From Sphingosinicella sp. CPCC 101087 (GTDB lineage Bacteria > Pseudomonadota > Alphaproteobacteria > Sphingomonadales > Sphingomonadaceae): DNA of 35,847 bases. Positions 12,443-27,925 of this stretch are shown here, piece after piece; position 1 is the stretch's first letter; each line of letters begins with the position of its first letter. Under the pieces are notes generated by a model, which was not told the DNA's origin, searched no databases, and saw nothing but the letters and a program-made list of their open reading frames with translations. The stretch lies in assembly GCF_004151485.1 (NCBI RefSeq), contig NZ_SBFF01000018.1, forward strand, positions 1 to 35,847, written 5' to 3'. The position numbers were made by a program, and so were the translations under genes.

Positions 12443-12592
12443 CGGCACGCGCCTGGCAGCCGGCGCAGCGGTCCGCGCCGATATACCAAGTTCATGGGAT
12501 GATTTGCCGCTCGCTCTTTGTCTAGCAGCAGGGCTCGGTGATCCGGACGGAGGGCAAAGCCGCCGGTCGCCGTGCGAAAGCGGGGGGCAAGA

Positions 12593-14413
12593 ATGTCAGG
12601 GGCGGACGGGGGTCTGTCGCCGCGCGGATGGGTGACGTGCGGGCGGCGTGCAGCGGCGAGCTTCGTGCTCGCGATGGTGCTGGTGGCGGACCCGTCGGTC
12701 GCCGCGGCCCAGGCGGTGCCGGCCTCGCCTCCGACACGCGAGGAAGTCGAGCGCGCACCGGTGCAGTCGCTGCCGGGCAGGGGGGCGCGGCTGGAGGTCG
12801 AGGGGGGTGTTCCGGCCGGCCGTTGCGCGCTCGACGATCCGCGCTTCGAAGAAATTCGGGTCACGCTCGCCTCTGTCGAGTTTCAGGAGATGGGGCCGGT
12901 CCCGTCCGCCCTGCTCGAGCCGGCTTATGCGGGGCTGATCGGGTCGGAGCAGCCGGTTTCGGTGCTTTGCGCGATACGGGACCGCGCCACGGCGATCCTC
13001 AACGAGGCCGGTTACCTGGCCGTGGTCGAGATACCCGAACAAAGCCTGGCCGATGGCCGCGCCGCTTTCCGAGTCGTGCTCGGCCGGTTGGTCGCGGTCA
13101 GGGTTCGCGGCGACGCCGGCCGCTCCGAGCGGCTCGTCGCCGCTTATCTCAGGCGACTGACCGAGGACGAGGTGTTCAACCGCGAGGCGGCCGAGCGCTA
13201 CCTGCTCCTCGCCGGTGACCTCCCCGGCTACGACGTGCGCCTCACCTTGCGCTCGGCAGGCGCCGGCCCCGGCGAGCTCGTCGGCGAGGTGGCTGTCCTG
13301 CATAGCCCTGCGACCCTCGTCGCGAGCGTCCAGAATTATGGCTCGGAGGCGCTCGGGCGCTTCGGCGGCCTGCTGAGCGCGGAGCTTTACGGCCTGACAG
13401 GGCTGGGCGACCGAACGACCCTGACCGCCTTCACCACCCTCGACTTCGATGAGCAGCAGACCCTCCAGCTCGGCCACGACTTCCGCATCGGCAGCGACGG
13501 TCTCGTCGTCTCGGCGCAGGTCACCGGTAGCTGGGGCCGTCCGGAGACCGGCCTTGCCGACGTCGACGTGGATTCGGAAACGCTCTTCGCGACGCTGCAG
13601 GCGACCTACCCTTTCCTGCGCACGCGGCAGGCGAGCATCCGCGGGTCGATCGGCTTCGACCTGGTCGACCAGGATGTCGATTTCAACGATGCGCCGCTCA
13701 CGCGCGACCGGCTTCGGGTCCTGTTTGGCCGGCTGACGTTCGACAGCGCCGATCCGGACAGCCTGGCCTATCGGAACGGCTATTCGCCGGCCGAGCCGCG
13801 CTGGGCCGGGCGCGGGCTGATCGAGGTCCGGCACGGCGTCGACGTCTTCGGCGCGTCGCCCGATTGCCGGCCGGCGCCGGCCGAATGCCTGGCCGCGGGC
13901 GCCCAGTCCCCCAGCCGGATCTTCGCCGATCCGACCGCGACGCTCGTCCGCTACGCCGGAGCCGCCGAATTCCGCCCGGTGCCCGCCGTCACGATCGCGG
14001 TCGAGGCCCGCGCCCAGTATAGCGCCAGGCCGCTGCTCGCTTTCGAGGAGTTCTCGGCCGGGAACTTCACCATCGGCCGCGGCTACGATCCGGGCGCGAT
14101 CCTCGGCGACAGCGGCATCGGCAGCAGCATCGAGCTGCGCCTCGGCAGGCTTGCGCCGATGACGCGCAACGACCTGGCGGTCCAGCCTTACGTGTTCGTC
14201 GATGTCGCCAGGGTGTGGAACGAGGATCCGGGCGTTGCCGGGGACCGGCTGGCCTCGGCCGGCGGCGGGTTGCGCGCGCTCTGGGGCGACCGCGTGCAGG
14301 CCGACATGACCGTCGCCATCCCGCTCGAGCGCGTCGGCCTTCAGGCCGACCGTGGAGACGTCCGCTTCCTCTTCACCCTGACCACCAAGCTTCTGCCTTG
14401 GAGTTTCCGATGA
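12593..14413 (+). CDS. Two-partner secretion outer-membrane transporter (TpsB; ShlB/FhaC/HecB family)
   Basis: A ~606-residue Omp85-superfamily transporter that exports a cognate TpsA protein. It has a signal peptide (SFVLAMVLVADPSVAAAQA) and a proline-rich linker. Two POTRA-like regions follow, at about 85-160 (including AIRDRATAILNEAGYLAVVE) and 160-235 (RLTEDEVFNREAAERYLLLA). The rest is a 16-strand barrel. The diagnostic loop-6 motif is present as GRGYDPG, with Arg496. The frame is open to GTG 12572, but ATG 12593 is preferred because GGGGGG lies seven bases upstream. The stop overlaps the next gene as ATGA. It should sit in the outer membrane and thread the downstream exoprotein to the cell surface. 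Confidence 0.93.
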   Translation: MSGADGGLSPRGWVTCGRRAAASFVLAMVLVADPSVAAAQAVPASPPTREEVERAPVQSLPGRGARLEVEGGVPAGRCALDDPRFEEIRVTLASVEFQEMGPVPSALLEPAYAGLIGSEQPVSVLCAIRDRATAILNEAGYLAVVEIPEQSLADGRAAFRVVLGRLVAVRVRGDAGRSERLVAAYLRRLTEDEVFNREAAERYLLLAGDLPGYDVRLTLRSAGAGPGELVGEVAVLHSPATLVASVQNYGSEALGRFGGLLSAELYGLTGLGDRTTLTAFTTLDFDEQQTLQLGHDFRIGSDGLVVSAQVTGSWGRPETGLADVDVDSETLFATLQATYPFLRTRQASIRGSIGFDLVDQDVDFNDAPLTRDRLRVLFGRLTFDSADPDSLAYRNGYSPAEPRWAGRGLIEVRHGVDVFGASPDCRPAPAECLAAGAQSPSRIFADPTATLVRYAGAAEFRPVPAVTIAVEARAQYSARPLLAFEEFSAGNFTIGRGYDPGAILGDSGIGSSIELRLGRLAPMTRNDLAVQPYVFVDVARVWNEDPGVAGDRLASAGGGLRALWGDRVQADMTVAIPLERVGLQADRGDVRFLFTLTTKLLPWSFR

Positions 14414-17400
14414 TGTCGCACGATCGCAATCGGCCGGCCACGCGCCGCAGGACCGGGCTCAGGGCCGGCTGTGCGGTCGCCGCCATCGCCGCCCTGGCGG
14501 GGCCGTTCGCCGGCGCCGCCTTCGCGCAGGCCTTCAACGGCTCGCCGACCGTGGCGACCGGTCAGGTGAATTTCGACCGCACCACGCCGGGCGTCGAGAC
14601 CATCACCGTGCTCGACGACTCGATCGTCAACTGGACGCCGGTCGAAGGGCCGGGCGGAACGATCGACTTCCTGCCGGCCGGCAACACGGCGTTCTTCCAG
14701 GATTCGGTCGGCGACGGCGGCTTCGTCATCCTGAACCGGATCCTGCCGACCGGAACGGGAATCGTGGAGCTCAACGGCAACATCGTCAGCCGGCTGCAGA
14801 CCGGGGCCGGCACGACGCCTGGCGGCCTTGTCGCTTTCTACAGCCCGAACGGGATATTGGTCGGGAGCACGGCGGTTTTCGACGTCGGCAGCCTGATCCT
14901 CACTGCCGCCGATCCCGACCCGGCGAGCTTCCAGGATTTCGGAAACGGCAGCGGCGCGCTCGGCCTGGCCGCCGTTCCGGGCAGTAGCGCGCGCGTGGAG
15001 ATCCTGCCGGGGGCCACCATCAATGCGACGGCCGAGAACAGCTTCCTCGCGGTCGTCGCTCCGCAGGTCGTCATGGGCGGGACGGCGCGGATCAACGGCT
15101 CGACTGCCTATGTCGCGGCCGAGGCCGTGGGCCTGACGCTGATCAACGGCCTGTTCGACATCGTCGTGACGGCCGGCACCAGCGTGGCCGACGCGATCAT
15201 CCACACCGGCACCACCGGCGGCCCGGCCCGGACCGGCGCGGACTCCAGGCAGGCGATCTACGCCGTGGGTGTCGGCCAGACCCAGGCCGTCCAGCTGCTT
15301 TTCTCCGGCAATCTGGGTTTCGACCCGGCGACGGACGCCAGCATCGTCAATGGCGAGATCGTCCTGTCGGCCGGCTATAACATCACCTCGATCACGTCGG
15401 ACGGCAGTCCGGCGACCGGCGACCCGCTGTTCGGCGGTCCCTGCGACGGCTGCGGCGCCGATCCCGTCAGCGCCTCGCCGGCGAGCATTATCGTCGACGG
15501 CGGAAGCTTCACGTCCAACCTGGTCGGCCGCGCGGTGACCGACTTCCTGGTGGCGAGCACCACCGCGACGCCCAGCTTCAGCGGCGACCTGATCATGCAG
15601 GCCGGATCGCGGGCGCATGTCGGGGCGCGTGTTACCGGCGAGTTGCTGACGATCGGTGGCAATCTCGAAATCTCGACCGACGATCTCAAGAATTTCGCCG
15701 TCGCCAATCCCAGCGTCACCCGAGAGCTCGACGCCCAGGGCGGCCAGTCGCTGCTCTATGCGGAGAATGGCGGCAATATCGACGTCGCCGGCGACGTCCG
15801 GGTGACCGCCGACGCGCGGCCGGGCACCAACTCGGTCCTCGGGACCTCCGGCTCCGCCACCGGCGGCGAGGCGAGGATTTTTGCCGCCGGAGGCGGATCC
15901 ATCACGATCGATGGCGGCACGCGCGTCTCGGCTTCGGCCCAAAGCTATCTCTCCTTCGGCGGGGCGTCCCCGGTCGGTGGCGATTCTACCGGCGGCGCGG
16001 CGTCCGCGGCGGCGTTCGATGGCAGTTCCGTCGTGATCTTCGGCGACGTCGAGATCGATGCTTCCGCGACCGCTGGCTTCGGCTCGACCGCCGATGGCGT
16101 CGCCGGCATAGCGCGCCTCGTTACGGAGAGCGGCGGCTCCGCGCTCGCCCTGGGGAACGTCACCGTCACCGCAAATGCGAATGGCGGCGGCGGCCCCGAC
16201 GGCGGTGCGGCGGCAGCGGGCAGCGCTGGAATTCTTGCGATCGGCGGTCAAATCCAGATCAATGGCGCGATAGGGGTCGCGGCCGACGCGGTCGGCGGCA
16301 ATGCCAGCGGCTTCGGCGGCCAGGGCGGCTCGGGCGAGGGCGGCACGGCGTTCATCCAGGCGGAGTCGCCGGGGGCGGGGCGCTTCTTCGGAGGCAGCGC
16401 CACCATCACGGCCAACGGTTTCGGCGGCACGGGCGGCGCGGGCGATGGCGGATCGGTCGCGGCCGGCGCGGGTGGCGAAGGCCGCGGCGGGCTCTTCGAC
16501 AACCAGATCGATTCCGGCGGGGCGTTCGCGCTCGCCGGTATCGACGAGGGCGATCTCACATTGCTCGACGTCACCCTGGAGGCGATCGGCACAGGCGGCG
16601 CCGGCGGCGCCGGCGGCGCAGGGCAGGGGGGTGGCGCCGGCGGCGCGGCCTTCGGCGGCACGGCCCAGCTCGGATCGTACAGGGGCGAGGCCTCGGGCAA
16701 TTTCGGCGGGTCCGTGGCGCAATTCGTGACCGCCGTTGCGAATGCCTCCGCGGCCGGCGGAGCCGGTGGCGCCGGACCGGCGGGTGCCGGCGACGGCGGC
16801 GCCGCGACGGGAGGGCTTGCCATCGTGACCGGCACCAGCGGCGGTCAGGTAAGCGTCGATACGATCGGTCTGCTCTCGAACGCCGAGGGTGGAACGGGCG
16901 CCACGGGGGGCGCTGCAATCGGCGGCCGGGCGGGCATCTCTGCTACGGGCGACATCGGCATCGGCACCGCGACGCTGGAGGCGCGGGCTCTGAGCGCAGG
17001 CGGCGCGACCGGCGGCGCAGGAGCCGTCGTGGGCGGCAACATCCTGATCGAGACCGGCGCTGGCCTTGGTGGCAGTGTCGGCAATATCGAGGTCGGCAGC
17101 CTTGCCGGTGACATCACGTCGCTGGGAGACGTCGCGACAAGCACGCCCGGCACGACCGACCTGCTGGTCCCGGTCGGCGAGGCGCAATTCACGACGTTTG
17201 GCGTCGCCGCTACCGAAGAACAGGCCGGGCAGGTGGCGCCTGCGGCGTCGAGGATCTCGACGGGCGGCCTGGTGACCTTCCTCGAGAGCGCTCAATGGCA
17301 GGTGCAGGGCGATATCGAGATCAGCACGACCGGATCGGGCCGCATTCTGGGCGGTCCCGATCCGAACACGCCGACCGCATTCCTGAACTTCTTCAGCGCG

Positions 17401-18585
17401 AACGGCACGATCAGCATCGCCGGCGTGAATGACGACATCATCAATCTCGGCGGGCAGGGCCTCTCTCTCGTCTCGAACGACCTCGAGATCCTGGAGGGCG
17501 CGCGCATCGGCGCGGTGGACGTTTCCCTCATCGCCAACGACACCGGCGAGCTGGTCACACTGGGCGGCGCCGAGCAGGGACCCGGTTATACCCTGACCCA
17601 GGACGAAGCGGCCCGGGTCGAGGCCCAAAGCGTCTTCTTCAACGGCACGGACGTGGTCGTGCGCGACCTCACCATCACCGGCGCGCCCGACGGCGGCCCG
17701 TCCTTCGTCGAGCTGGAAGCCGACAATGTGAGCGTCCAGGGCGCCCTGGTCTATGTCGCCGGTCCCGAGGACACCTTGTCGATCGACGTCGCCGGCGGCC
17801 TGCTCGAGGTGATCACGCCCACCGGCTCGATAAGCGTCAACGACGGCGAGACGTTGAGCGGCCGGCTCGAGATCGAAGCTGGAACGACCATCGTCGCCGA
17901 CGCCGAGCTGACGGCGCGGATCAAGGCCGACCCGAATTTCGACGGCCTCGCCGACGCGCTGGCGACGAACAACGGCCCGGACAATCCCGAAGGCTATCTC
18001 CAGGCTTCGATCATCGAGTTCAGCTTCGACGGAGAGCCCGGAGAACCCCAGAAGGCCGTTTACATCCAGAATAGCGGCGACGACACGACCTTCGGCGGCA
18101 CGGCGACCCGCGTCCCCGGGCTGATCTTCAGGCTCGAGGACGATGACGACGAGGCGGCCCAGGTCCGCCTGATCGGCTATGGCGCCGGCCTCGACCAGGG
18201 CGGCGGCGCGGTCACCAATTCCGCTTATGCGAACAGTGTCGATTTCGGCGAGGGGCAGGGCATCACCTATACGGACGATTCCGAGTTCAACGCCACCTTC
18301 GTCACGACGGGCCTGCCGGCGCGGCCGTCGCCTGGCGGCGAAGGCGGCGGCGCAATCCAGGGTTCGGAGATCGTCATCGGCCCGCTGGCGCAACTGGTCA
18401 TCCCGGAGCCCGGAGAAGAGGAGCGCGACCTGGCATTCGGCGGCGCCTTCCCGGCGCTGATCGGGACGGCCGACCTCACGCTGGATTCGATGATCGACCA
18501 GGGCGTGGCGAGCGGCGGCGACAACGCCCGGTGGCGCACCGGCGCCGACGAGCGCGAGGAAGATGATAGCGGGCAGGAGCAATGA
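14410..18585 (+). CDS. Two-partner secretion exoprotein (TpsA), filamentous haemagglutinin N-terminal domain
   Basis: A 1391-residue secreted protein. An Arg-rich n-region and signal peptide end near residues 38-41 (GAAFAQA). The TPS domain occupies roughly 42-290 and carries the family hallmarks NRIL (109-112, equivalent to NRV) and SPNGILVG (145-152, equivalent to NPNGI), which TpsB POTRA domains recognise. The rest should form a right-handed beta-helix: repetitive IxVxGDV-like strands, then a Gly/Ala-rich low-complexity block, then a less repetitive C-terminal 450 residues ending in an acidic tail. No C-terminal toxin or barrel domain is recognisable, so an adhesin, matrix or surface-layer role is likelier than contact-dependent inhibition. 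ATG 14410 overlaps the TpsB stop (ATGA); a second ATG follows at 14413. Its own stop overlaps the CHAT gene. Cargo function is unknown. Confidence 0.9.
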   Translation: MMSHDRNRPATRRRTGLRAGCAVAAIAALAGPFAGAAFAQAFNGSPTVATGQVNFDRTTPGVETITVLDDSIVNWTPVEGPGGTIDFLPAGNTAFFQDSVGDGGFVILNRILPTGTGIVELNGNIVSRLQTGAGTTPGGLVAFYSPNGILVGSTAVFDVGSLILTAADPDPASFQDFGNGSGALGLAAVPGSSARVEILPGATINATAENSFLAVVAPQVVMGGTARINGSTAYVAAEAVGLTLINGLFDIVVTAGTSVADAIIHTGTTGGPARTGADSRQAIYAVGVGQTQAVQLLFSGNLGFDPATDASIVNGEIVLSAGYNITSITSDGSPATGDPLFGGPCDGCGADPVSASPASIIVDGGSFTSNLVGRAVTDFLVASTTATPSFSGDLIMQAGSRAHVGARVTGELLTIGGNLEISTDDLKNFAVANPSVTRELDAQGGQSLLYAENGGNIDVAGDVRVTADARPGTNSVLGTSGSATGGEARIFAAGGGSITIDGGTRVSASAQSYLSFGGASPVGGDSTGGAASAAAFDGSSVVIFGDVEIDASATAGFGSTADGVAGIARLVTESGGSALALGNVTVTANANGGGGPDGGAAAAGSAGILAIGGQIQINGAIGVAADAVGGNASGFGGQGGSGEGGTAFIQAESPGAGRFFGGSATITANGFGGTGGAGDGGSVAAGAGGEGRGGLFDNQIDSGGAFALAGIDEGDLTLLDVTLEAIGTGGAGGAGGAGQGGGAGGAAFGGTAQLGSYRGEASGNFGGSVAQFVTAVANASAAGGAGGAGPAGAGDGGAATGGLAIVTGTSGGQVSVDTIGLLSNAEGGTGATGGAAIGGRAGISATGDIGIGTATLEARALSAGGATGGAGAVVGGNILIETGAGLGGSVGNIEVGSLAGDITSLGDVATSTPGTTDLLVPVGEAQFTTFGVAATEEQAGQVAPAASRISTGGLVTFLESAQWQVQGDIEISTTGSGRILGGPDPNTPTAFLNFFSANGTISIAGVNDDIINLGGQGLSLVSNDLEILEGARIGAVDVSLIANDTGELVTLGGAEQGPGYTLTQDEAARVEAQSVFFNGTDVVVRDLTITGAPDGGPSFVELEADNVSVQGALVYVAGPEDTLSIDVAGGLLEVITPTGSISVNDGETLSGRLEIEAGTTIVADAELTARIKADPNFDGLADALATNNGPDNPEGYLQASIIEFSFDGEPGEPQKAVYIQNSGDDTTFGGTATRVPGLIFRLEDDDDEAAQVRLIGYGAGLDQGGGAVTNSAYANSVDFGEGQGITYTDDSEFNATFVTTGLPARPSPGGEGGGAIQGSEIVIGPLAQLVIPEPGEEERDLAFGGAFPALIGTADLTLDSMIDQGVASGGDNARWRTGADEREEDDSGQEQ
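16183..17040 (+). repeat. Gly/Ala-rich low-complexity repeat region inside the TpsA exoprotein gene
   Basis: Imperfect GGC-rich repeats encode runs such as GGAGGAGGAGQGGGAGGAA within residues ~590-880. The composition (Gly with Ala, few charged residues) resembles the glycine-rich coils of secreted beta-helix proteins. Copies are not identical, so this is a low-complexity tract and not a clean tandem array. Boundaries are approximate. Confidence 0.6.
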
Positions 18586-21500
18586 TCGTGAAAGCAGCCT
18601 TGTTGACCGGATCGGGTCTCGCGGTCGCGCTGGCCCTCGCGGCTCAGGCGCCGGCGCAGCAGCGTCCGGTCAGCCTGGAGGAGAGCTTCCAGATCGGATC
18701 GAATGCGCTCTGCACCGCCCAACTGCTGCCGGCCGACCGCGCGGGAGACCTGTTCGATCGCACCTACGCCCTCGTCTGTCGCGACGCTTCCGCGCCGGTC
18801 GGCCGGCTCGCCGTCATTCGCGGTACGACCGAGTCGGCGATCGAGCGCGTCCATCACGGCGACTCCGGCAATTGCTCGCCCGCCGCGCGGGTGGCGATCG
18901 ACGGCCTCGGTGAAGTGCAGGCGCTGCGCTGCGCTGCCGAGGGGAGCATCCAGCGCATCACCTACCTGTTGCCGCGCGGCGGCAGCGTCTACGCGGCTCA
19001 TGGAGTGGCCGGTTATGAGAGCGCCCTCGGCATCGGGCTGCGGACGATCGCGCTCGATCGCCCGGTCGATGCCCCGGTCGAGATCGCGGTAACGGAGGGC
19101 AGCGACGCGGCTGCCTTTGCGCGGGCCCAGGCGGTTCAGCTCTCGCCCGAGGCGGCGCTCGCCGAAGCCTATCGCCGCAGCAATGCCGGCGACTTTGCGG
19201 CCGCCGCCGAGTTTTTCGCTGCCGCCGAACAGGCCGACGGACCAGCCGCGAGCGGTGCCGAGGCGATGCTCAACGCTGCCCTGCAGCAATCCAATCTCGG
19301 AAATCATGCGCGCGCCGAGGAGCTGTTCGCTCAAGCTGTGGAATCGGTCGGCACCGACCCGGTCCTGGCGCGCATGATGCGCAACTATCAGGCGATCCAC
19401 CGCCTGAACCTGGACGACCGCGCCGGCGCGATCGAACTGCTTTCGGCGGCATTGCCCGCGCCGGAGGGTTTCGATCCGGCCGGTCTTCGCGCGTTGGAGA
19501 TCGACCGCGGCCTCGCCGCGCGGCTCAATGCCGAAGGCAGTGGCGCCGCGCCCCTGATCGCCGGTACGGACGCGCTGCTCCCGGCCGAGCGCGCCGAAGT
19601 CCTGGACGGCCAGGCGGCGCAGCTCCGCGGGACGGTCTATGGCTTGAACGGCGACCCTGCGCGCGCGCGTCTCGAGCTCAACCAGGCTCTCGAGAGGCTG
19701 GGGGCGGTCCGGGGCGGCCGGATCGGCTCGGTCGCCTGGATGCGGGCCCAGATCATGACCGAACTTGCGGCGATGGCCGAATCGGACGGCGATCCGGCCG
19801 AGGCCGAGCGGCTGTATCGAGCCGCCGCCGAGCTCGTCGCCACGCGCTATCCGGCCTCGCCCGCCTTGCTGTCGTCGCAGGCGCAGCTGGCGAGCTTCCT
19901 CGCCCGCGCCGGCCGCGAAGATGAGGCGATCGCACTCTACCGGTCTGTCGTCGAGATCGCGCAGCGCACGCCGGCACCGGGCCTCAAGCGCCTGATCACC
20001 CCTTATTTCGCCCTCCTAGCGCGGCGTGCCGACCGGCCGGAAGCCGTCGCCGACATGTTCCAGGCCGGGCAGGCGCTGATGCGGCCCGGCGTCGCGCAGA
20101 CTCAGGCCGTGCTGGCGCGCGAACTCTCCGCCGGAAGCGATGCGGCGGCCGGCCTCTTCCGGCGGTCGCTCAACCTGGCGCGGGAGGTCGAGCGCACCCG
20201 CATCGCCGTCGCCGCCCTGGCGAGCGAGGCGTCGCAGGACGCTGGGGCCGGCCTGCGCCTCGCCGAGCTTCAGCAGCGCCTTGAAGCGCTGGAGTCGCTG
20301 CAGGTCGCGACCCAGGCCGAGCTTGCGCAATATCCGCGCTACCGCGCGGTTTCTCCCGCGGCGATCGGACTTGCCGAGCTTCAAGGCGAGCTTCGCGAGG
20401 GCGAGGCCTATCTGAAGCTCATCGTCCTCGACGATTCGAGCTACGCGCTCTTCCTGACCCGCGATGCGGCCCGCGCCTATCCGATCGGGATGAGCGAGAG
20501 CGAGATGAACGGAATCGTCTCGGCCCTCAGGGACTCGATCGTGAAAGTCGAGGACGGGCAGAACGTCACCTACCCGTTCGATGTCGCGCGCTCGCATGAG
20601 CTTTACGGCCGACTGTTCGGCCCGGTGGAGCGGGAGATGGCCGGCATTCGCCATCTGGTGTTCGAGCCCGATGGCGCGATGCTGACGCTCCCGCTCAACC
20701 TGCTGGTGACCAGCGGCGACAGCGTCGCGGCTTATGCCGAGCGGGCGAACCGGCCCGACGGCGATCCGTACGACTTCACCGGACTCGACTGGCTCGGCCG
20801 GCGCCTCGACGTGACCACGGCCGTCTCCGCCGGCGCCTTCCGGGATATCCGCCAGGCCAGGCCCTCCGGCGCGCAACGCGCTTATCTCGGCTTCGGGCAG
20901 AACCAGCCGGTGGACGTGACCGCGCTCCCCTCCGCCACGCGCTCGGCGGCTGGAGGGGGCTCGGCCTGCCAATGGCCGGTCTCAACCTGGTCCCGACCCA
21001 TCTCGGCGGCCGAGCTGCTGGCGGCGCGCGGCTCCATCGCCCGCACCGGCGGCAACGAGGGACAGGTCGTCACCGGCGAAGACTTTTCGGACACGTCCAT
21101 CCGCCGGATGGAGGGGATGGACGACTATCGGGTCATCCACTTCGCCACGCACGGCCTGGTGACGGCGCCGCGCGCGGAATGCCCGGCACTTCCCGCCTTG
21201 CTGACCTCGTTCGGCCCAGAGGAGTCGGACGGCCTGCTGACCTTCGCCGAGATATTCGATCTCCGGCTCGATGCCGATCTGGTCATCCTCTCGGCCTGCG
21301 ACACGGCGGGGGGCGCCAGCATCGCCGCGACGCGCGCAGCCGGGATCATGTCCGGCGGCGGCACTGCGATGGACGGGTTGGTGCGCGCCTTCGTCGGCGC
21401 CGGCGGCCGATCGGTGCTGGCCAGCCACTGGCCGGTGCCGGATGATTTCTCCGCCACCGAGCGGCTCGTCACCGGCCTGTTCACCGCCCCTCCGGGCACT

Positions 21501-21671
21501 TCGACCGCCGAATCCCTCCAGATCGCCCAACGCGCGCTGATGGATGATCCGCAGACGTCCCATCCTTACTACTGGTCGGCTTTCGCCATCGTGGGAGATG
21601 GCGCCATCCCCGTCATCCGAACGGCGGCCGCGACACAGGCGGTGCCGCCCGCGATCGCGTCGCTCGACTGA
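18582..21671 (+). CDS. Exported TPR-CHAT domain protein, putative caspase-like peptidase
   Basis: A 1029-residue protein with a Sec signal peptide (LLTGSGLAVALALAAQAPAQ). An N-terminal unknown domain runs to ~180. TPR-like helical repeats span about 186-540 (LAEAYRRSNAGDFAAAAEFF, AEAERLYRAAAELVATRYPA, EDEAIALYRSVVEIAQRT). A CHAT domain spans about 600-1010. The CHAT catalytic pair is present: His857 in VIHFATHGLV and Cys906 in VILSACDTAGG, with GRSVLASHWPVPD after it. CHAT proteins are caspase/separase relatives (clan CD), often scaffolded by TPRs and active in the cytoplasm. Here the signal peptide predicts a periplasmic or surface location. The start overlaps the TpsA stop as ATGA, so the three genes are translationally coupled. 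It could mature or release the exoprotein, but the activity is unproven. Confidence 0.92.
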   Translation: MIVKAALLTGSGLAVALALAAQAPAQQRPVSLEESFQIGSNALCTAQLLPADRAGDLFDRTYALVCRDASAPVGRLAVIRGTTESAIERVHHGDSGNCSPAARVAIDGLGEVQALRCAAEGSIQRITYLLPRGGSVYAAHGVAGYESALGIGLRTIALDRPVDAPVEIAVTEGSDAAAFARAQAVQLSPEAALAEAYRRSNAGDFAAAAEFFAAAEQADGPAASGAEAMLNAALQQSNLGNHARAEELFAQAVESVGTDPVLARMMRNYQAIHRLNLDDRAGAIELLSAALPAPEGFDPAGLRALEIDRGLAARLNAEGSGAAPLIAGTDALLPAERAEVLDGQAAQLRGTVYGLNGDPARARLELNQALERLGAVRGGRIGSVAWMRAQIMTELAAMAESDGDPAEAERLYRAAAELVATRYPASPALLSSQAQLASFLARAGREDEAIALYRSVVEIAQRTPAPGLKRLITPYFALLARRADRPEAVADMFQAGQALMRPGVAQTQAVLARELSAGSDAAAGLFRRSLNLAREVERTRIAVAALASEASQDAGAGLRLAELQQRLEALESLQVATQAELAQYPRYRAVSPAAIGLAELQGELREGEAYLKLIVLDDSSYALFLTRDAARAYPIGMSESEMNGIVSALRDSIVKVEDGQNVTYPFDVARSHELYGRLFGPVEREMAGIRHLVFEPDGAMLTLPLNLLVTSGDSVAAYAERANRPDGDPYDFTGLDWLGRRLDVTTAVSAGAFRDIRQARPSGAQRAYLGFGQNQPVDVTALPSATRSAAGGGSACQWPVSTWSRPISAAELLAARGSIARTGGNEGQVVTGEDFSDTSIRRMEGMDDYRVIHFATHGLVTAPRAECPALPALLTSFGPEESDGLLTFAEIFDLRLDADLVILSACDTAGGASIAATRAAGIMSGGGTAMDGLVRAFVGAGGRSVLASHWPVPDDFSATERLVTGLFTAPPGTSTAESLQIAQRALMDDPQTSHPYYWSAFAIVGDGAIPVIRTAAATQAVPPAIASLD

Positions 21672-23476: not shown

Positions 23477-23491
23477 ACGGGTTCAGCCGGC
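23468..23491. terminator. Perfect palindrome spanning both convergent stop codons, probable bidirectional terminator
   Basis: GCCGGCTGAAC (23468-23478) is followed by GG and its exact complement GTTCAGCCGGC (23481-23491), an 11-base inverted repeat. The lipoprotein stop (23474-23476) lies in the left arm and the histidine kinase stop (23483-23485, minus strand) in the right arm, so the hairpin serves transcripts from both sides. No long T run follows on the plus strand, so efficiency is uncertain. Confidence 0.6.
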
Positions 23492-25753
23492 TTCCTCTCC
23501 GGCGGCGAGCGGGAGCGTCACGGTGAAGGTCGTGCCCTCGCCGAGACTGCTCTCGCACCTGATGGTGCCGCCGTGCCGCGCGATCACCGTCTGCACGATG
23601 GCGAGGCCCAGACCGGCGCCTCTGGAGCCTGCGGCGGCAGGGCCGCGTCGAAACCGCTCGAACAGGGTGGCGACCATCTCGGGCGCCATGCCGCCGCCTT
23701 CATCCCGAATCAGGCACTCCGCCACCGGGCCTTCGCCGCTGTCGCGGCGGCGGACCGTGCAGGCCAGCCGTCCGCCGTGCGGGCTGTGCTTCGTCGCATT
23801 GTCGAACAGGTTGATGAACGCCCGTGTCAGCAGCGAGGGCTCGCCGGACAGAAGCAACTCCTCGTCCACGCGATTAACCTCCACCTCGAGATTCTTCTCG
23901 CGAATCTGGGGCCAGAGCTCGTCGATGGCATCGTCGACGACGTCGACCAGGTTGAGGAGGAGCGGCTCGTAGCTGAGCGTCTCCGCGCGTGCGAGATGCA
24001 CGATGCCGTCGGCCAAAGCGAGCGTGCGATGGGCGTAGCGTTCGATCCGCTCGGCGAGCGCCGGCGCGATGTTCTCCGGTTCGGCGCTGGACGTGAGCGC
24101 GAGGATCGACGCCTGCGGGGAGCGCATGTCGTGGGTCAGATAATGGAGCATGTCGTCGCGCTGCCGCTGGGCGATGCGGATCGGGCTGATGTCGCTCATG
24201 CGGACGATCCACCCGGCGGGACGTCCGCTCTCGTCGTGATGCTCGCTCGACAGGATGTCGAAGATCCGGCCGTCGGGAGCGACGGCCTCCTGCCGCTTGC
24301 CGGCGCCGGGCGGCGGCCACAGCGAAAGGCCGCTGCCGTCGAACATGGGCTCCAGCCGGTCCAGAAGGTCCGGGAGCCGCGGCTCTCCGCCGGTTCGGTG
24401 AATCGTCTCGAGCAATTCCTGCGCGCATCGGTTGGCGAGGGTGATCGCGCCCTCCTTGTCGACGACGAAAACCGCATCGGGGAGCTGGTCCATGCTGTCG
24501 GACACGAACCGCCGCATCGCGCGCAGCTTCGACACCGCCTCGCCCAGCAATATGGCCTCTCGCGTGACCGGATCGGTGGTGACGGTCGGGTTCGTGACCG
24601 AGGGCAATATGTCGGGCTCGGCCCGGAGCCGTTCCAGCTCGCTGACCATGTAGCCGCTCACGCCGACCAGTCGTCGCCATCCCCACAGGGGGTAGACCAG
24701 CACCGGGCCGATCAGCGCGGGGACAGGGGGAATCCAGATCCTGAGCCAGTGGAAGGCGGCCGCGCTCAGAGCGAGGATCAGCAGGATCAAGGCCGGGAGC
24801 ACGACCAGCGTCGTCCGCGGCCGCAGCTTGCGCAAGGCGAGCAGCAGCAGCCAGAGCGGCGCCAGCGCGAAGAGCGCCCGAAACCACGGTACGGCCTCGT
24901 CCGCCAGGTCGCCTCTCAGGAGGCCGTCGAGCAGGTTCGCCTGGATCTCGACCCCGGACATTCCGCCATCGCGGTCGCTCAGCGGGACAGGATGCCGGTC
25001 GCCCAGTCCCGGCGCCGTCGCACCGACGATCACGATCCGGTCCCGCAGCAGCTCGGCCGGAAGTTCTCCCCGAAGCACGGCATCCGCCCCGATGGTCGGG
25101 AAATGGCCGGATGGGCCCGCGAACGGGAGCAGGATGATCCCGTCGCGGCCGGCGGCGGGCGCGCCTTCGGCGCCGACTTGTGCGTGGCGCCGCACGAGAT
25201 CCATCAGATGGGGCCACTCGGCGGCGCCGTCGCGTTCCGTCAGCCGCACCCGGCGGATCTTGCCGTCGCGGTCGGGGATGAGGTTCACATGGCCGGTGCC
25301 CGACGCCGTTTCGCGAAGCGGCGGGACCGGCTGGATGGCCTCGAGCGGCGAGCCGGCCGTTCCGGTCTGCTCGAGAAGCAGCGGGAGGAAGACCGGCCCG
25401 GCTCGGCCTATGGCTTGCCCGAGCCGCGCATCGCCCGGCGCGGGCTCCAGGAATAGGACGTCATAGGCGATGGCGCTCGGAGCGCCCTCGGCGATATGCT
25501 CGATCAGTTCGGCATGGATTTCGCGCGGCCATGGCCAGCGGCCGACCGCCTGCAGGCTGCGATTGTCGATGGTGACGAGCAGGATGCGCGGATCCGGCTC
25601 GTGCGTCTTGAGGTGGAGGAGCGCGTCATAAGCGAGGTCGTCCATCCTCTCCGTGGCGCGGCTCTGGGCGAGGAAGATGACGAGAGCGCTGGAGACGATG
25701 GCGACCAGCCACCATTCGGCGGTGAGGCGATGGAGCCGGCCCGGGAATCTCAT
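23483..25753 (-). CDS. CHASE2-PAS sensor histidine kinase
   Basis: A 756-residue membrane sensor kinase. One N-terminal transmembrane helix (WWLVAIVSSALVIFLA) precedes an extracytoplasmic CHASE2 domain (~32-290, including RILLVTIDNRSLQAVGRWPW). Three further helices follow (~295-370), the usual CHASE2 arrangement. A PAS domain comes next (QLPDAVFVVDKEGAITLANR), then the HisKA domain with phospho-acceptor His541 in HYLTHDMRSPQAS. The ATPase domain carries the N box NLFDNATKHS, DEGGGM, FERFRRG and GAGLGLAIVQ. ATG 25753 is chosen because it overlaps the FecR-protein stop as ATGA; upstream in-frame codons lie inside that gene. It is the third gene of the operon after the response regulator and FecR protein, so the regulator is its likely partner. 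The stimulus is unknown. Confidence 0.93.
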   Translation of the reverse strand: MRFPGRLHRLTAEWWLVAIVSSALVIFLAQSRATERMDDLAYDALLHLKTHEPDPRILLVTIDNRSLQAVGRWPWPREIHAELIEHIAEGAPSAIAYDVLFLEPAPGDARLGQAIGRAGPVFLPLLLEQTGTAGSPLEAIQPVPPLRETASGTGHVNLIPDRDGKIRRVRLTERDGAAEWPHLMDLVRRHAQVGAEGAPAAGRDGIILLPFAGPSGHFPTIGADAVLRGELPAELLRDRIVIVGATAPGLGDRHPVPLSDRDGGMSGVEIQANLLDGLLRGDLADEAVPWFRALFALAPLWLLLLALRKLRPRTTLVVLPALILLILALSAAAFHWLRIWIPPVPALIGPVLVYPLWGWRRLVGVSGYMVSELERLRAEPDILPSVTNPTVTTDPVTREAILLGEAVSKLRAMRRFVSDSMDQLPDAVFVVDKEGAITLANRCAQELLETIHRTGGEPRLPDLLDRLEPMFDGSGLSLWPPPGAGKRQEAVAPDGRIFDILSSEHHDESGRPAGWIVRMSDISPIRIAQRQRDDMLHYLTHDMRSPQASILALTSSAEPENIAPALAERIERYAHRTLALADGIVHLARAETLSYEPLLLNLVDVVDDAIDELWPQIREKNLEVEVNRVDEELLLSGEPSLLTRAFINLFDNATKHSPHGGRLACTVRRRDSGEGPVAECLIRDEGGGMAPEMVATLFERFRRGPAAAGSRGAGLGLAIVQTVIARHGGTIRCESSLGEGTTFTVTLPLAAGEEAG

Positions 25754-27078
25754 TCGTCCGGGGTGATCGTCAGCTGCTCCATCGCCGACCATTTGGCGAA
25801 AGCGGAACCGTCGACGAACTGGACGGACATGACCCGCCAATAATAGGTGCCCTCCGGAAGGTCGGTGACGACGAAGCGCCCGGTGGTCAGGCCGGCTTCG
25901 TCGACCATGGGCGTCGCGTCGGGCCGGTCCTTCATGAGCTGGAACCGATATTGGCGGGTGCCCGAGCCCTCGACGATCCAGCGGAACAGATATTCCCGAT
26001 ATCGCCCGGCTTGCCGCTGCTCCAGCGCTGTCTCGATCTGCTGGAGGCGGCGCTGGAAGCTGTAGGTGGCGGCCAGGCCTTCGAGGCCCTGGGCGTCGAG
26101 GGCGGATGCGCGGACGAACCAGGTGCCGTCCGGCACCGGGGGCAGGGTCACGTTCGGCGTTTGGGCCGTCTCGTCGGCGGCCACGTCGAGAAATCCGGCG
26201 TCACGCGCCACCTGGACGCGATAGGCCGCGGCATTTTCGAGCGGCTCGACCTCGAAGTTCAGCTCTGGCTCGTCCTGCACCTTGCCTGGCCGCCGCAGCT
26301 CCGGTGCCGGCAGGAGCGGCACGGGCGGCGAGGTTCCGGCGGCCGTCGACACGGCGCCGAAGCCGGCGGCGAGCGCGACCGGATCCGCTTCCGCATTCGC
26401 GGCGACGGCGACCGTCCCGTCGATCACTTCGGTGGCCGCGCGAGCGCTGTCCGGCTCGAAGCGGGCTCGAAACTCGGTCCCGCGCACGGCGGAGACCGAG
26501 ACCGGAGTCGAGATCCGGAATCCGTCGTCCTCGTTCTCCGCCGGAGTCACGACGGCGCGAGTCCGGCCCGCCTCCAGAGCGAACGAACGTTCGATGCCGC
26601 CCGTCAGGAGCACGCGGCGCAGGCGACGCACGCCGACGCGGCTGCGCGAAGGCAGGGACACGGTCGATCCGTCCTCGAGGCGGAGCGACACGAAGGCGTT
26701 GGCGGCCGTCGAGATCTCGTCGCCTTCGCTAATCTTCGTGCCTTCGGCCACGGCGACTTCCCGGCCGCCTCTGGTGACGCGGACCTGCCCCCGCATCGCG
26801 ATCACGGTCGCCGTCAACGGTTCGTGGCGCAGCAGCGCGCGCGGGATCCGTAGGGTTCGTCCGACGGGCAGGCGGTACGGGTCTATGACCCGGTTGAGCC
26901 GCTGCACACGAACATAATCGGCCGTCCGGACGAAGTAGCGCTGGGCCAGCGTGTAGAGATTGTCTCCCTGCCGGGTCGTATAGAGCACCGGGTCGGCAGG
27001 ACCTGGTGGAGAGGCGGCCGACGCGGCCACGGGAAGCAGGAATGCCACCAGCGCCGCGATGATCGCCCCTCTCGTCAT
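25750..27078 (-). CDS. Exported LysM-FecR domain protein
   Basis: A 442-residue periplasmic protein. A signal peptide (AALVAFLLPVAASAAS) is followed by a LysM peptidoglycan-binding domain at ~33-79 (TTRQGDNLYTLAQRYFVRTA). A FecR domain at ~92-215 (EGTKISEGDEISTAANAFVS, then SVSAVRGTEFRARF) comes next. The C-terminal ~200 residues look like two fibronectin-type or jelly-roll repeats (GTWFVRASALDAQGLEGL and GTYYWRVMSVQFVDG). Classical FecR is an anti-sigma signal transducer, but no sigma factor gene is present here. Instead the gene is wedged between a response regulator and a CHASE2 kinase, with ATGA overlaps at both ends. It may bind cell wall or another envelope component and present a signal to the kinase. 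Domain calls firm, role inferred. Confidence 0.9.
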   Translation of the reverse strand: MTRGAIIAALVAFLLPVAASAASPPGPADPVLYTTRQGDNLYTLAQRYFVRTADYVRVQRLNRVIDPYRLPVGRTLRIPRALLRHEPLTATVIAMRGQVRVTRGGREVAVAEGTKISEGDEISTAANAFVSLRLEDGSTVSLPSRSRVGVRRLRRVLLTGGIERSFALEAGRTRAVVTPAENEDDGFRISTPVSVSAVRGTEFRARFEPDSARAATEVIDGTVAVAANAEADPVALAAGFGAVSTAAGTSPPVPLLPAPELRRPGKVQDEPELNFEVEPLENAAAYRVQVARDAGFLDVAADETAQTPNVTLPPVPDGTWFVRASALDAQGLEGLAATYSFQRRLQQIETALEQRQAGRYREYLFRWIVEGSGTRQYRFQLMKDRPDATPMVDEAGLTTGRFVVTDLPEGTYYWRVMSVQFVDGSAFAKWSAMEQLTITPDE

Positions 27079-27773
27079 GCCGTTCCCTCCCCGATCGCCT
27101 CCAGCCGGTATCCGTAGGCGTAGACGGGAACAAGCCTGAAGCCGTTGCTCGCCCTAAGTCCGAGCTTCGTCCTCACCTTGGAAATGTGGGCGTCGAGGGT
27201 GCGTGTCTGCAGATCGGGATTGGATCCCCAAAGCGCCTCGAAGATGTAGGAGCGCGACAGCGTCCGGTTGAGGTTGCGGAACAGCATCAGCGCCAGCGCG
27301 AACTCCTTGGCGGTGAGCTGGATCGGCGAGTCGCGCACGGTGGCGGTTTCGGTGCGCGTGTCGAAGGCATATTCGCCGAACTTCTCCGGTCCGGTCGAGG
27401 GCGGCTCCGGATAGACTCGCCGGCACAGCGCCTCGATCCTGGCGAGCAGCACCGCCGGCTGGACCGGCTTGATGACATAATCGTCGGCGCCGGCCTTGAG
27501 CGCCGCGACGATATCCTCTTCGGCCGTGCGGCTGGTCAGCACCACGATCGGGGGGTGGCGCGTGACATGCTGCCGCGACCAGCGGATCACGTCGAGACCG
27601 GACACGTCCGGGACGTTCCAGTCCAGCAGCAGGATGTCGACCGTCTCGCGCGACAGGAAACCGATCAGCTTCTGCCCACTGTGGAAGACGAAGCTGCTAT
27701 GTCCCGCCGTTGAGAGCAGTTTCTGCAGTTGATCGGCCAAGGCCGGGTCATCCTCGAGAATGCCGATCCGCAT
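27075..27773 (-). CDS. OmpR/PhoB-family response regulator
   Basis: A 232-residue two-domain regulator. The receiver domain has the acidic pocket Asp8/Asp9 (ILEDDP), phospho-acceptor Asp51 (LLLDWNVPDVSG), Thr80 (VVLTSRT) and Lys102 (DDYVIKPVQ). The C-terminal winged-helix domain is seen in LTAKEFALALMLFRNLNRTL and TLDAHISKVRTKLGLRASNG. The frame extends to 27914, but the receiver fold begins at ATG 27773; the Shine-Dalgarno there is weak. Its stop overlaps the LysM-FecR ATG as ATGA, making it the first gene of a three-gene sensory operon with the CHASE2 kinase. It probably activates or represses promoters with tandem direct repeats; TTTGCA-N4-TTTACA sites nearby are candidates. Confidence 0.94.
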   Translation of the reverse strand: MRIGILEDDPALADQLQKLLSTAGHSSFVFHSGQKLIGFLSRETVDILLLDWNVPDVSGLDVIRWSRQHVTRHPPIVVLTSRTAEEDIVAALKAGADDYVIKPVQPAVLLARIEALCRRVYPEPPSTGPEKFGEYAFDTRTETATVRDSPIQLTAKEFALALMLFRNLNRTLSRSYIFEALWGSNPDLQTRTLDAHISKVRTKLGLRASNGFRLVPVYAYGYRLEAIGEGTA

Positions 27774-27908
27774 TGCCCATGTCTGTTTCTTGATGTCGTT
27801 GAACTCTCCGCAAGGCCATCCGCAGCTCGAAGATCGAGCGGGATCGCGAACAAGGCCGTTGCGCCCCATAGCAGGCTTATCGCCGTTGCTAGCGGGACGG
27901 CACCGGCA

Positions 27909-27925
27909 TTTCACACTCCTTTACA
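27909..27925 (+). promoter_or_regulatory. Possible variant tandem half-site TTTCAC-N5-TTTACA
   Basis: TTTCAC (27909-27914) and TTTACA (27920-27925) form an imperfect direct repeat with an 11-base period, 136 bases upstream of the response regulator ATG. It shares the TTTACA half with the two better copies at 21789 and 28061. It is weaker because the first half-site differs and the spacing is one base longer. Confidence 0.3.

Follow-up and report, generated by a model that had tools for sequence, protein, structure and literature searches.

Why is a gene pair for two-partner secretion (TPS, type Vb) overlapped by a gene for an apparently exported TPR-CHAT protein with a protease-type His-Cys pair? 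The question is raised by a contig of Sphingosinicella sp. CPCC 101087 (NCBI RefSeq assembly GCF_004151485.1, NZ_SBFF01000018.1, positions 1 to 35,847), and this whole stretch of 35,847 nucleotides is called the window below. It encodes a TpsB transporter, a TpsA exoprotein and the TPR-CHAT protein, referred to as CHAT. Our analysis revealed that the pairing of CHAT with TPS genes is no accident, and that CHAT-linked TpsAs end in a conserved tag, which is new here. We hold with moderate confidence that the system is a three-partner variant of type Vb secretion, in which an exported TPR-CHAT protein would read the C-terminal tag of TpsA and cleave nearby. Loci and genomes from the searches are cited by L and G numbers.

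The three-gene operon

All three genes lie on the plus strand. The tpsB gene (12593-14413) starts with ATG at 12593, its open reading frame (ORF) being open from a GTG at 12572, and encodes an outer-membrane transporter of the ShlB/FhaC type (606 amino acids). The ShlB profile PF03865 scored 60.1 bits against a Pfam cut-off of 22.7, which identifies the TpsB barrel; POTRA_2 (PF08479) reached 19.1 bits, under its cut-off of 24. The tpsA gene (14410-18585) adjoins tpsB and encodes a large exported exoprotein of 1391 amino acids with a signal peptide, the gene-pair arrangement of type Vb systems. The protein, made up of the signal peptide, a weak FHA/TPS N-terminal domain and a Gly/Ala-rich middle, had no match in Pfam, and in NCBIfam TIGR01901 scored 17.3 bits, under its cut-off of 29.1. 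It is called TpsA because of its position, its signal peptide and this weak FHA-type N-terminal match. Ten N-termini of TpsA relatives behaved similarly: PF05860 (TPS domain) was listed for four of them (one above the cut-off, two within one bit of it), and all ten gave FHA- or LktA-type adhesin matches in NCBIfam (E < 0.02, all under cut-off). CHAT-linked TpsAs range from about 1,240 to 5,140 amino acids and are highly variable apart from their common C-terminal end. The third gene (18582-21671) encodes the exported TPR-CHAT protein of 1029 amino acids.

At the TpsB/TpsA junction, ATGATG, the TpsB stop TGA (14411-14413) is overlapped by the TpsA ATG at 14410, and a second in-frame ATG of TpsA lies at 14413. 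At the TpsA/CHAT junction, ATGA, the CHAT start ATG at 18582 overlaps the TpsA stop TGA (18583-18585). The initial annotation had described one operon with ATGA overlaps at both junctions, implying fixed stoichiometry. Coordinates and sequence confirm the operon and both overlaps; fixed stoichiometry exceeds what an overlap shows, and translational coupling is the safe reading.

Linkage of CHAT to two-partner secretion genes

The window CHAT was used as a query against 199 genomes of its family, and a match at 1e-10 was found in 93. Outside the window genome (G000) there are 76 full-length matches; the surroundings of 75 of these and of five divergent matches, eighty stretches altogether, were read and typed with profiles, as was the second copy of the window genome. 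The 199 genomes were also searched with a TpsB profile built from the CHAT-linked TpsBs. The score tiers used below, for TpsB in the family and for CHAT in the class, were set only after the scores had been seen.

A TpsB of the first or second tier lies within 25 kb, on the same strand, for 75 of the 78 full-length CHATs of the family. Two of the other three are on contigs holding no such TpsB, although one of these two, that of L039, has TpsA directly upstream; in the third, G127, the genes are separated by 358 kb. Counted from the TpsB side, CHAT occurs within 25 kb of 83 of 126 places (73/75 in tier one, 9/23 in tier two and 1/28 in tier three). A further set of named loci, the best 80 of 584 confirmed, comes from Sphingomonadales, a few being labelled just alpha- or proteobacteria. 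In this set TPS genes were found in all 57 loci with flanks of 8 kb or more upstream and 7 kb or more downstream, and every one of the 12 loci without TPS genes is cut by a contig end.

The search was extended to 385 genomes of the class, where, among the matches listed, 66 CHATs outside the family scored at least 180 bits; the TpsB places are likewise those among the matches listed. At 300 bits or more, 18 of 21 CHATs have TpsB within 20 kb, the strand being shared in 17. The three exceptions come from assemblies broken into roughly 100 to 480 contigs; for one of these genomes (G537), one TpsB place is missing from the list. Linkage fell to 2/12 at 250-300 bits and to 0/33 at 180-250 bits, where just nine of the 33 are in genomes with a listed TpsB. 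This drop with CHAT score serves as an internal control, TPS linkage being absent from other TPR-CHATs. The linked CHATs of at least 300 bits span, among the matches listed, 11 families besides that of the window. A phylum-wide draw of 398 genomes gave a CHAT match at 1e-30 in 28, and more distant CHATs are also recorded on plasmids of cyanobacteria and other phyla. The initial annotation had named rare adjacency of CHAT to TPS genes in relatives as a ground for refutation; the family and class counts show the opposite.

Gene order and joint descent

Three gene orders recur: TpsB-TpsA-CHAT, as in the window; CHAT-CHASE2/adenylate cyclase-exported protein-TpsB-TpsA; and CHAT-TpsB-TpsA. Some named loci have all five genes in one row (e.g., L196, Erythrobacter fulvus). 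The order of the window is conserved in relatives, recurring in 26 loci with the window counted, and in 18 of these TpsA and CHAT share a 4-nucleotide in-frame ATGA or GTGA overlap. By ORF coordinates, CHAT and TpsB overlap by 4 nucleotides in 11 of the 14 CHAT-TpsB-TpsA loci. An apparent CHAT fusion in L111 was rejected as an artefact, the open frame passing through masked letters.

Across 61 loci, CHAT and TpsB distances are correlated at 0.91 (the maximum in 500 permutations was 0.25), and nearest neighbours by CHAT and by TpsB agree in 46. The window genome itself contains, on contig C2 (L003, 1844-15494), a second, diverged set of TpsB, TpsA (2215 amino acids) and CHAT, the last 55% identical to the window CHAT; an Omp85/TamA-like gene comes after this set, and a third TpsB, on C12, is without CHAT. 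In the genomes with two sets whose loci were listed, the nearest neighbour was never the own paralogue. In a TpsB tree the 62 CHAT-linked TpsBs formed a clade excluding all 28 CHAT-less ones (support 0.989). Clean monophyly was not retained as a result: the CHAT-less sample consisted of the best ShlB matches and nearer CHAT-less TpsBs were outside the tree, so the clean split is partly due to sampling.

The C-terminal tag and cysteine pair of TpsA

The ends of CHAT-linked TpsAs share the tag consensus PLIDEPVTGxGN(D/E)DLW. In 67 TpsAs of the family a strict pattern was found in 56, a relaxed six-residue pattern in seven more, the window included, and the tag was recognised by eye in two more; of the remaining two, the L046 reading runs past the fetched stretch and L060 is unresolved. 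The tag of the window TpsA, VASGGDNARW (18505-18534, plus strand), is divergent and is followed by 16 residues up to the C-terminus. The tag or a variant of it also occurs at seven more ends of upstream TpsAs (L064, L109, L110, L112-L115). In the named set, 28 of the 33 complete TpsAs have it by pattern and three were recognised by eye, one of which carries E in place of N/D, the last two being a tag variant and a broken frame.

Conservation extends to columns that the pattern does not include. Pro precedes the core in 59 of 62 TpsAs, an acidic residue precedes this Pro in 59, and Trp or Tyr follows the Leu in 52, two of these columns having also been used in choosing among several matches per protein; farther from the core, information is low. 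All 51 matches of a longer pattern in 189,095 TpsA residues lie within the last 95 residues. Among the 8,863 ORFs from the loci fetched, a longer pattern gave 41 matches, each at most 80 residues from a C-terminus; an ORF of L239 that the script had set aside has an open left end and resembles a cut TpsA. In the class, 16 TpsA ends beside CHAT were assigned by position, some from one genus, and 11 contain the core G(N/K)(E/D)xL(W/F), e.g., ...GVAGSGNEGLWGVGLP. The PVTG part is replaced elsewhere by LVGR, FSNT, LITG or VASG. On plasmid pMSHV of Sphingobium herbicidovorans, a 2092-residue TpsA annotated as hypothetical ends in PLIDEPVTGAGNEDLW plus a short tail.

The tag was found in none of eight CHAT-less TpsA ends (L167, L168, L272-L275, L307, L308); L307 and L308, from the genus of the window, were judged by eye, and L308 has a faint NEVW. 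L183, in which the frame does not resemble TpsA, was left out of this count. The CHAT-less TpsAs of L272-L275 have another recurrent tail (PVYPRKxARH in two, a DRN end in two), perhaps the tag of another TPS subtype. In L119 and L120, QVTGTRNENLD-like repeats follow the tag, as though part of it had been multiplied. A preference for Asn or Asp at P1 is legumain- or caspase-like. Such specificity, considered for CHAT, was dropped: it is unsupported because the N/D position can also be K (in the class) or E (L192), and Craspase sites are non-conserved.

Upstream of the tag, a cysteine pair C-x(3-14)-C, usually in a STINGC or FNxC context, was found in 62 of 64 family TpsAs, i.e. the 67 less the doubtful readings L046, L058 and L060; pairs of the STINGCxxxxxxSC type occur, e.g., in the TpsAs of L003, L038 and L057/L125. 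In these 62 proteins the pair lies 48-122 residues before the tag, with a single exception. Cysteines number 10.6 per 1000 residues in the last 260 residues and 0.65 elsewhere. CdrA of Pseudomonas aeruginosa has a cysteine hook, which the C-terminal pair of most relatives recalls. For HxuA, passages of a TPS review describe a C-terminal disulphide loop that fixes the C-terminus within the pore of TpsB (PMC5422565); the tag may therefore face the periplasm, beyond a lock of this kind.

The TPR-CHAT protein

The CHAT protein has TPR-CHAT architecture, with 182 bits for Pfam CHAT (PF12770, cut-off 24) and 33.3 bits for TPR_12 (cut-off 30.1). A beta-rich N-terminal domain is followed by a helical/TPR region at about residues 180-580 and the CHAT domain at about 670-1006. 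The initial annotation had pointed to a His857/Cys906 pair. Residue 857 is indeed His, in VIHFATHGLV (codon 21150-21152, plus strand), and residue 906 is Cys, in VILSACDTAG (codon 21297-21299, plus strand). Both, of catalytic type, are invariant in ortholog alignments of 28 and 48 sequences, and the dyad was read from the sequences themselves in 28 of 28 loci of the class search (L279-L306). Absence of this conservation among orthologues, which the annotation had given as another ground for refutation, was not seen.

The N-terminus, MIVKAALLTGSGLAVALALAAQAPAQQ, resembles a Sec signal peptide, as the same annotation had proposed, judged by its composition. By a crude rule, a stretch of at least 11 small or hydrophobic residues is present in 60 of 71 distinct CHAT N-termini, and several CHATs of other families have, by eye, lipoprotein-like starts (e.g., LAGC, LAAC). 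Four Cys of the N-terminal beta domain (44, 66, 98 and 117) are invariant in the alignments and would fit an oxidising compartment.

An AlphaFold model of the protein (predicted local distance difference test, pLDDT, 84.5; predicted TM score, pTM, 0.83) was compared with the PDB. The Craspase TPR-CHAT protein (7y84_C) ranked first, followed by DdvA, separases and, lower down, kinesin light chain TPRs; DdvA (8rot, 8rw5) matched over most of the CHAT length at E 8e-10. This second match is a transmembrane protein, known here by title, and an exported location may be less exclusive than the contrast drawn in the initial annotation with cytoplasmic CHAT proteases suggests. Sequence search of the PDB led from the whole protein to TPR-type proteins, the TPR region being nearest to kinesin light chain TPRs, and gave no convincing match for the CHAT half. 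No PADLOC model matched the protein. CRISPR families were absent among the window ORFs scanned by Pfam, gRAMP not having been searched for genome-wide. LapG belongs to a protease family other than CHAT; to E 0.1, the CHAT protein matched only CHAT and TPR families in Pfam and no LapG family in NCBIfam.

Neighbouring genes

Roughly half of the loci also encode a CHASE2-cyclase together with an exported protein (e.g., L043 14574-17328, L049, L196). In the named loci (best 80 of 584) the cyclase gene comes after CHAT in 45, and in 44 of these the gene for the exported protein is present as well. Both CHASE2 and Guanylate_cyc domains were found by Pfam in both relatives scanned. The exported neighbour (about 250 amino acids) could be placed in no Pfam family, two examples having been scanned, and its model (pLDDT 83) had no PDB match at E <= 0.001; "FecR-like" is only our label for it. 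The annotation of pMSHV follows this layout gene by gene: CHAT, CHASE2, hypothetical, ShlB/FhaC/HecB, hypothetical. A Crp-type regulator beside CHAT in Sphingobium herbicidovorans is not conserved (0/161 TPS-CHAT loci at 1e-12).

In the window a PAS-GGDEF gene comes after CHAT. Farther on, at 23483-27914 on the minus strand, Pfam identified a CHASE2-PAS histidine kinase, a LysM-FecR protein and an OmpR-type regulator, domain kinds that resemble the partners found in relatives. Neither these genes nor the GGDEF and LuxR genes were accepted as parts of the system: homologues of the CHASE2 kinase, LysM-FecR, response regulator, GGDEF and LuxR proteins were found in 0, 0, 1, 5 and 0 of the 161 loci (tblastn, 1e-12). 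Open frames judged FecR-like by eye occur close to the CHAT-less TpsBs of L004, L171, L172 and L180, which may represent another TPS subtype.

Proposed mechanism and alternatives

In the reading preferred here, TpsB would export TpsA, and the TPR-CHAT protein would act as a dedicated third component, located in the periplasm. The C-terminus of TpsA is probably the last part to pass through TpsB. In most relatives the nearby cysteine pair could hold the protein in the pore of TpsB, on the model of HxuA and HMW1; the tag, lying beyond the pair, would be on the periplasmic side. A tag of the PVTGxGNxxLW type would be recognised by the TPR groove, bringing the caspase-like His-Cys site to TpsA, and a cut near the TpsA C-terminus would settle the fate of the protein, be it release, retention or maturation. 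For many relatives, the CHASE2-cyclase and the exported protein may report or control the state of the envelope. This reading draws on the linkage, the joint descent, the tag, the cysteine pair, the invariant dyad and the fold match to Craspase, all of them observed; where CHAT resides, what it recognises and whether it cuts are inferred. Maturation of TpsA by CHAT, as put forward in the initial annotation, is in this sense plausible. The tag, the cysteine pair of relatives, the second set in the genome and the CHASE2-cyclase and exported partners had not been noted there.

A tag docked by TPRs with a cut nearby is suggested by two precedents together with the LapG-CdrA pair discussed below. 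According to passages of a Craspase paper (PMC11106740), Craspase orthologues cut non-conserved sites near the C-terminus of Csx30, and its authors suggest that positioning outweighs the residues cut. Kinesin light chain TPRs bind short W-acidic peptides, e.g., TNLEWDDSAI of SKIP, as described in part of another paper (PMC6214655). By analogy, the DLW of the tag with its acidic residues resembles such peptides.

Several observations weigh against this mechanism. The last 260 residues of the window TpsA contain no Cys; the pair is missing from this protein, as it is from that of L056. The window tag lacks the Pro before Val and the Leu before Trp and answers to the relaxed pattern only. The tag has diverged in 5 of the 16 TpsA ends of the class, K or E can occupy its N/D position, and in L292 it is the very C-terminus (...SNTGNEQLW), which leaves almost no removable tail. 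The cysteine pair is not special to CHAT, because two TpsAs beside CHAT-less second-tier TpsBs (L307 and L308) also carry one near the C-terminus. In G127 CHAT and TpsB are truly 358 kb apart, and 14 of the 23 second-tier TpsBs have no CHAT within 25 kb; fairly close TpsB relatives without CHAT therefore exist, also in the genus of the window. Finally, the loop after Cys906 was modelled at low confidence.

The tag might also be a handle for holding TpsA. The TPR-CHAT protein would then bind it as an anchor or chaperone, retaining the C-terminus in the periplasm or keeping TpsA unfolded up to its secretion, with no cut, and the dyad would be structural or act on another substrate. We consider this somewhat unlikely. 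It agrees with the position of the tag at the extreme C-terminus of some TpsAs, with a TPR region near that of kinesin light chains in both sequence and fold, with a tag ending in LW and often surrounded by acidic residues, and with the periplasmic retention of the C-terminus of HMW1 and HxuA reported in parts of the TPS review (PMC5422565). However, every sequence examined retains His and Cys, like the active TPR-CHAT proteases; so strictly conserved a dyad is unusual for a mere anchor, and most relatives already have a cysteine pair possibly serving as one. Another function of the tag would be outside-in signalling, in which TpsA is the sensor, its transit sets CHAT activity through the tag, and CHAT cuts the exported FecR-like protein or the CHASE2 cyclase. 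The frequent cyclase gene after CHAT (45 of the best 80 of 584 named loci, confirmed by Pfam in two) and the fold match of CHAT to an anti-sigma factor point in this direction. We nevertheless regard it as unlikely: no such pair of cyclase and exported protein is present in the window or in the remaining loci (some of them contig-cut), and the window CHASE2 kinase, LysM-FecR protein and response regulator have homologues in just 0, 0 and 1 of the 161 TPS-CHAT loci.

Clan CD includes transpeptidases as well as proteases of the hydrolytic kind considered so far, and CHAT could cut at the tag and join TpsA to an acceptor in the envelope, like a sortase or the glycosylphosphatidylinositol (GPI) transamidase. 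The form of the tag in most of the family, PVTG followed by xGN, would suit such sorting, but no acceptor is known and PVTG gives way to LVGR, FSNT, LITG or VASG elsewhere, which makes this explanation very improbable. It is scarcely credible that CHAT and TpsA are merely co-inherited neighbours with no functional contact; parallel descent would also follow from linkage by itself, but the partners stay together in three gene orders and, among the matches listed, in 11 other families, and the tag tracks CHAT as far as it was read.

Relation to known systems and significance

The nearest parallel in role is CdrA-CdrB/LapG of P. aeruginosa. As described in passages of the TPS review (PMC5422565), CdrA is a TPS exoprotein, and a second messenger controls the cutting of its periplasmic C-terminal tail by a protease of the same compartment. 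The review does not count the LapG gene in the TPS operon; here CHAT is encoded in the operon and the tag is another one. LapG-CdrA can thus be taken as an analogue of role only. The same passages describe maturation of a TpsA by a protease in FhaB-FhaC/SphB1 of Bordetella (PMC5422565), where SphB1 is, in contrast, a subtilisin autotransporter encoded elsewhere. HMW1ABC and HxuCBA likewise have a third gene added to the TPS pair, and HxuA its C-terminal disulphide anchor (same source, in part); their third genes, however, encode a glycosyltransferase and a TonB-dependent transporter. The Craspase TPR-CHAT protein Csx29 shares the TPR and CHAT parts and the best fold match, and Craspase is a true protease, but Csx29 works attached to a CRISPR effector and is switched on by RNA, whereas the window CHAT is apparently exported and has a Cys-bearing N-terminal beta domain. 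DdvA matches the CHAT model in fold and differs in being a transmembrane anti-sigma factor.

In the open-licence literature we found no paper on the DdvA structure and none joining the CHAT domain with two-partner secretion, hemagglutinin or CHASE2. For the CHAT domain with periplasm or secreted, the sole mention of CHAT among the matches listed in that literature concerns targets of diversity-generating retroelements (DGR). The TPS review speaks, in the part considered, of "yet unidentified proteases" (PMC5422565). We tentatively propose, with slightly less than even confidence, that the loci represent a distinct TPS subtype, widespread in Alphaproteobacteria, whose exoprotein has a C-terminal tag that the co-encoded, exported TPR-caspase-like enzyme would read. 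In that case a TPS operon would for the first time encode a processing protease of its own, and a CHAT enzyme would have a first role in constructing the bacterial surface; in many species a coupled CHASE2 cyclase would report the outcome to the cell.

The CHAT proteases of Craspase act inside the cell, and here a whole CHAT subfamily goes with protein secretion. The tag and the co-encoded enzyme offer a testable answer to the question how TpsAs that have no known protease are matured, released or held. The operon points to specialised machinery that may trim, hold or sense surface proteins, and by which giant surface proteins of environmental alphaproteobacteria may be tied to second-messenger signalling.

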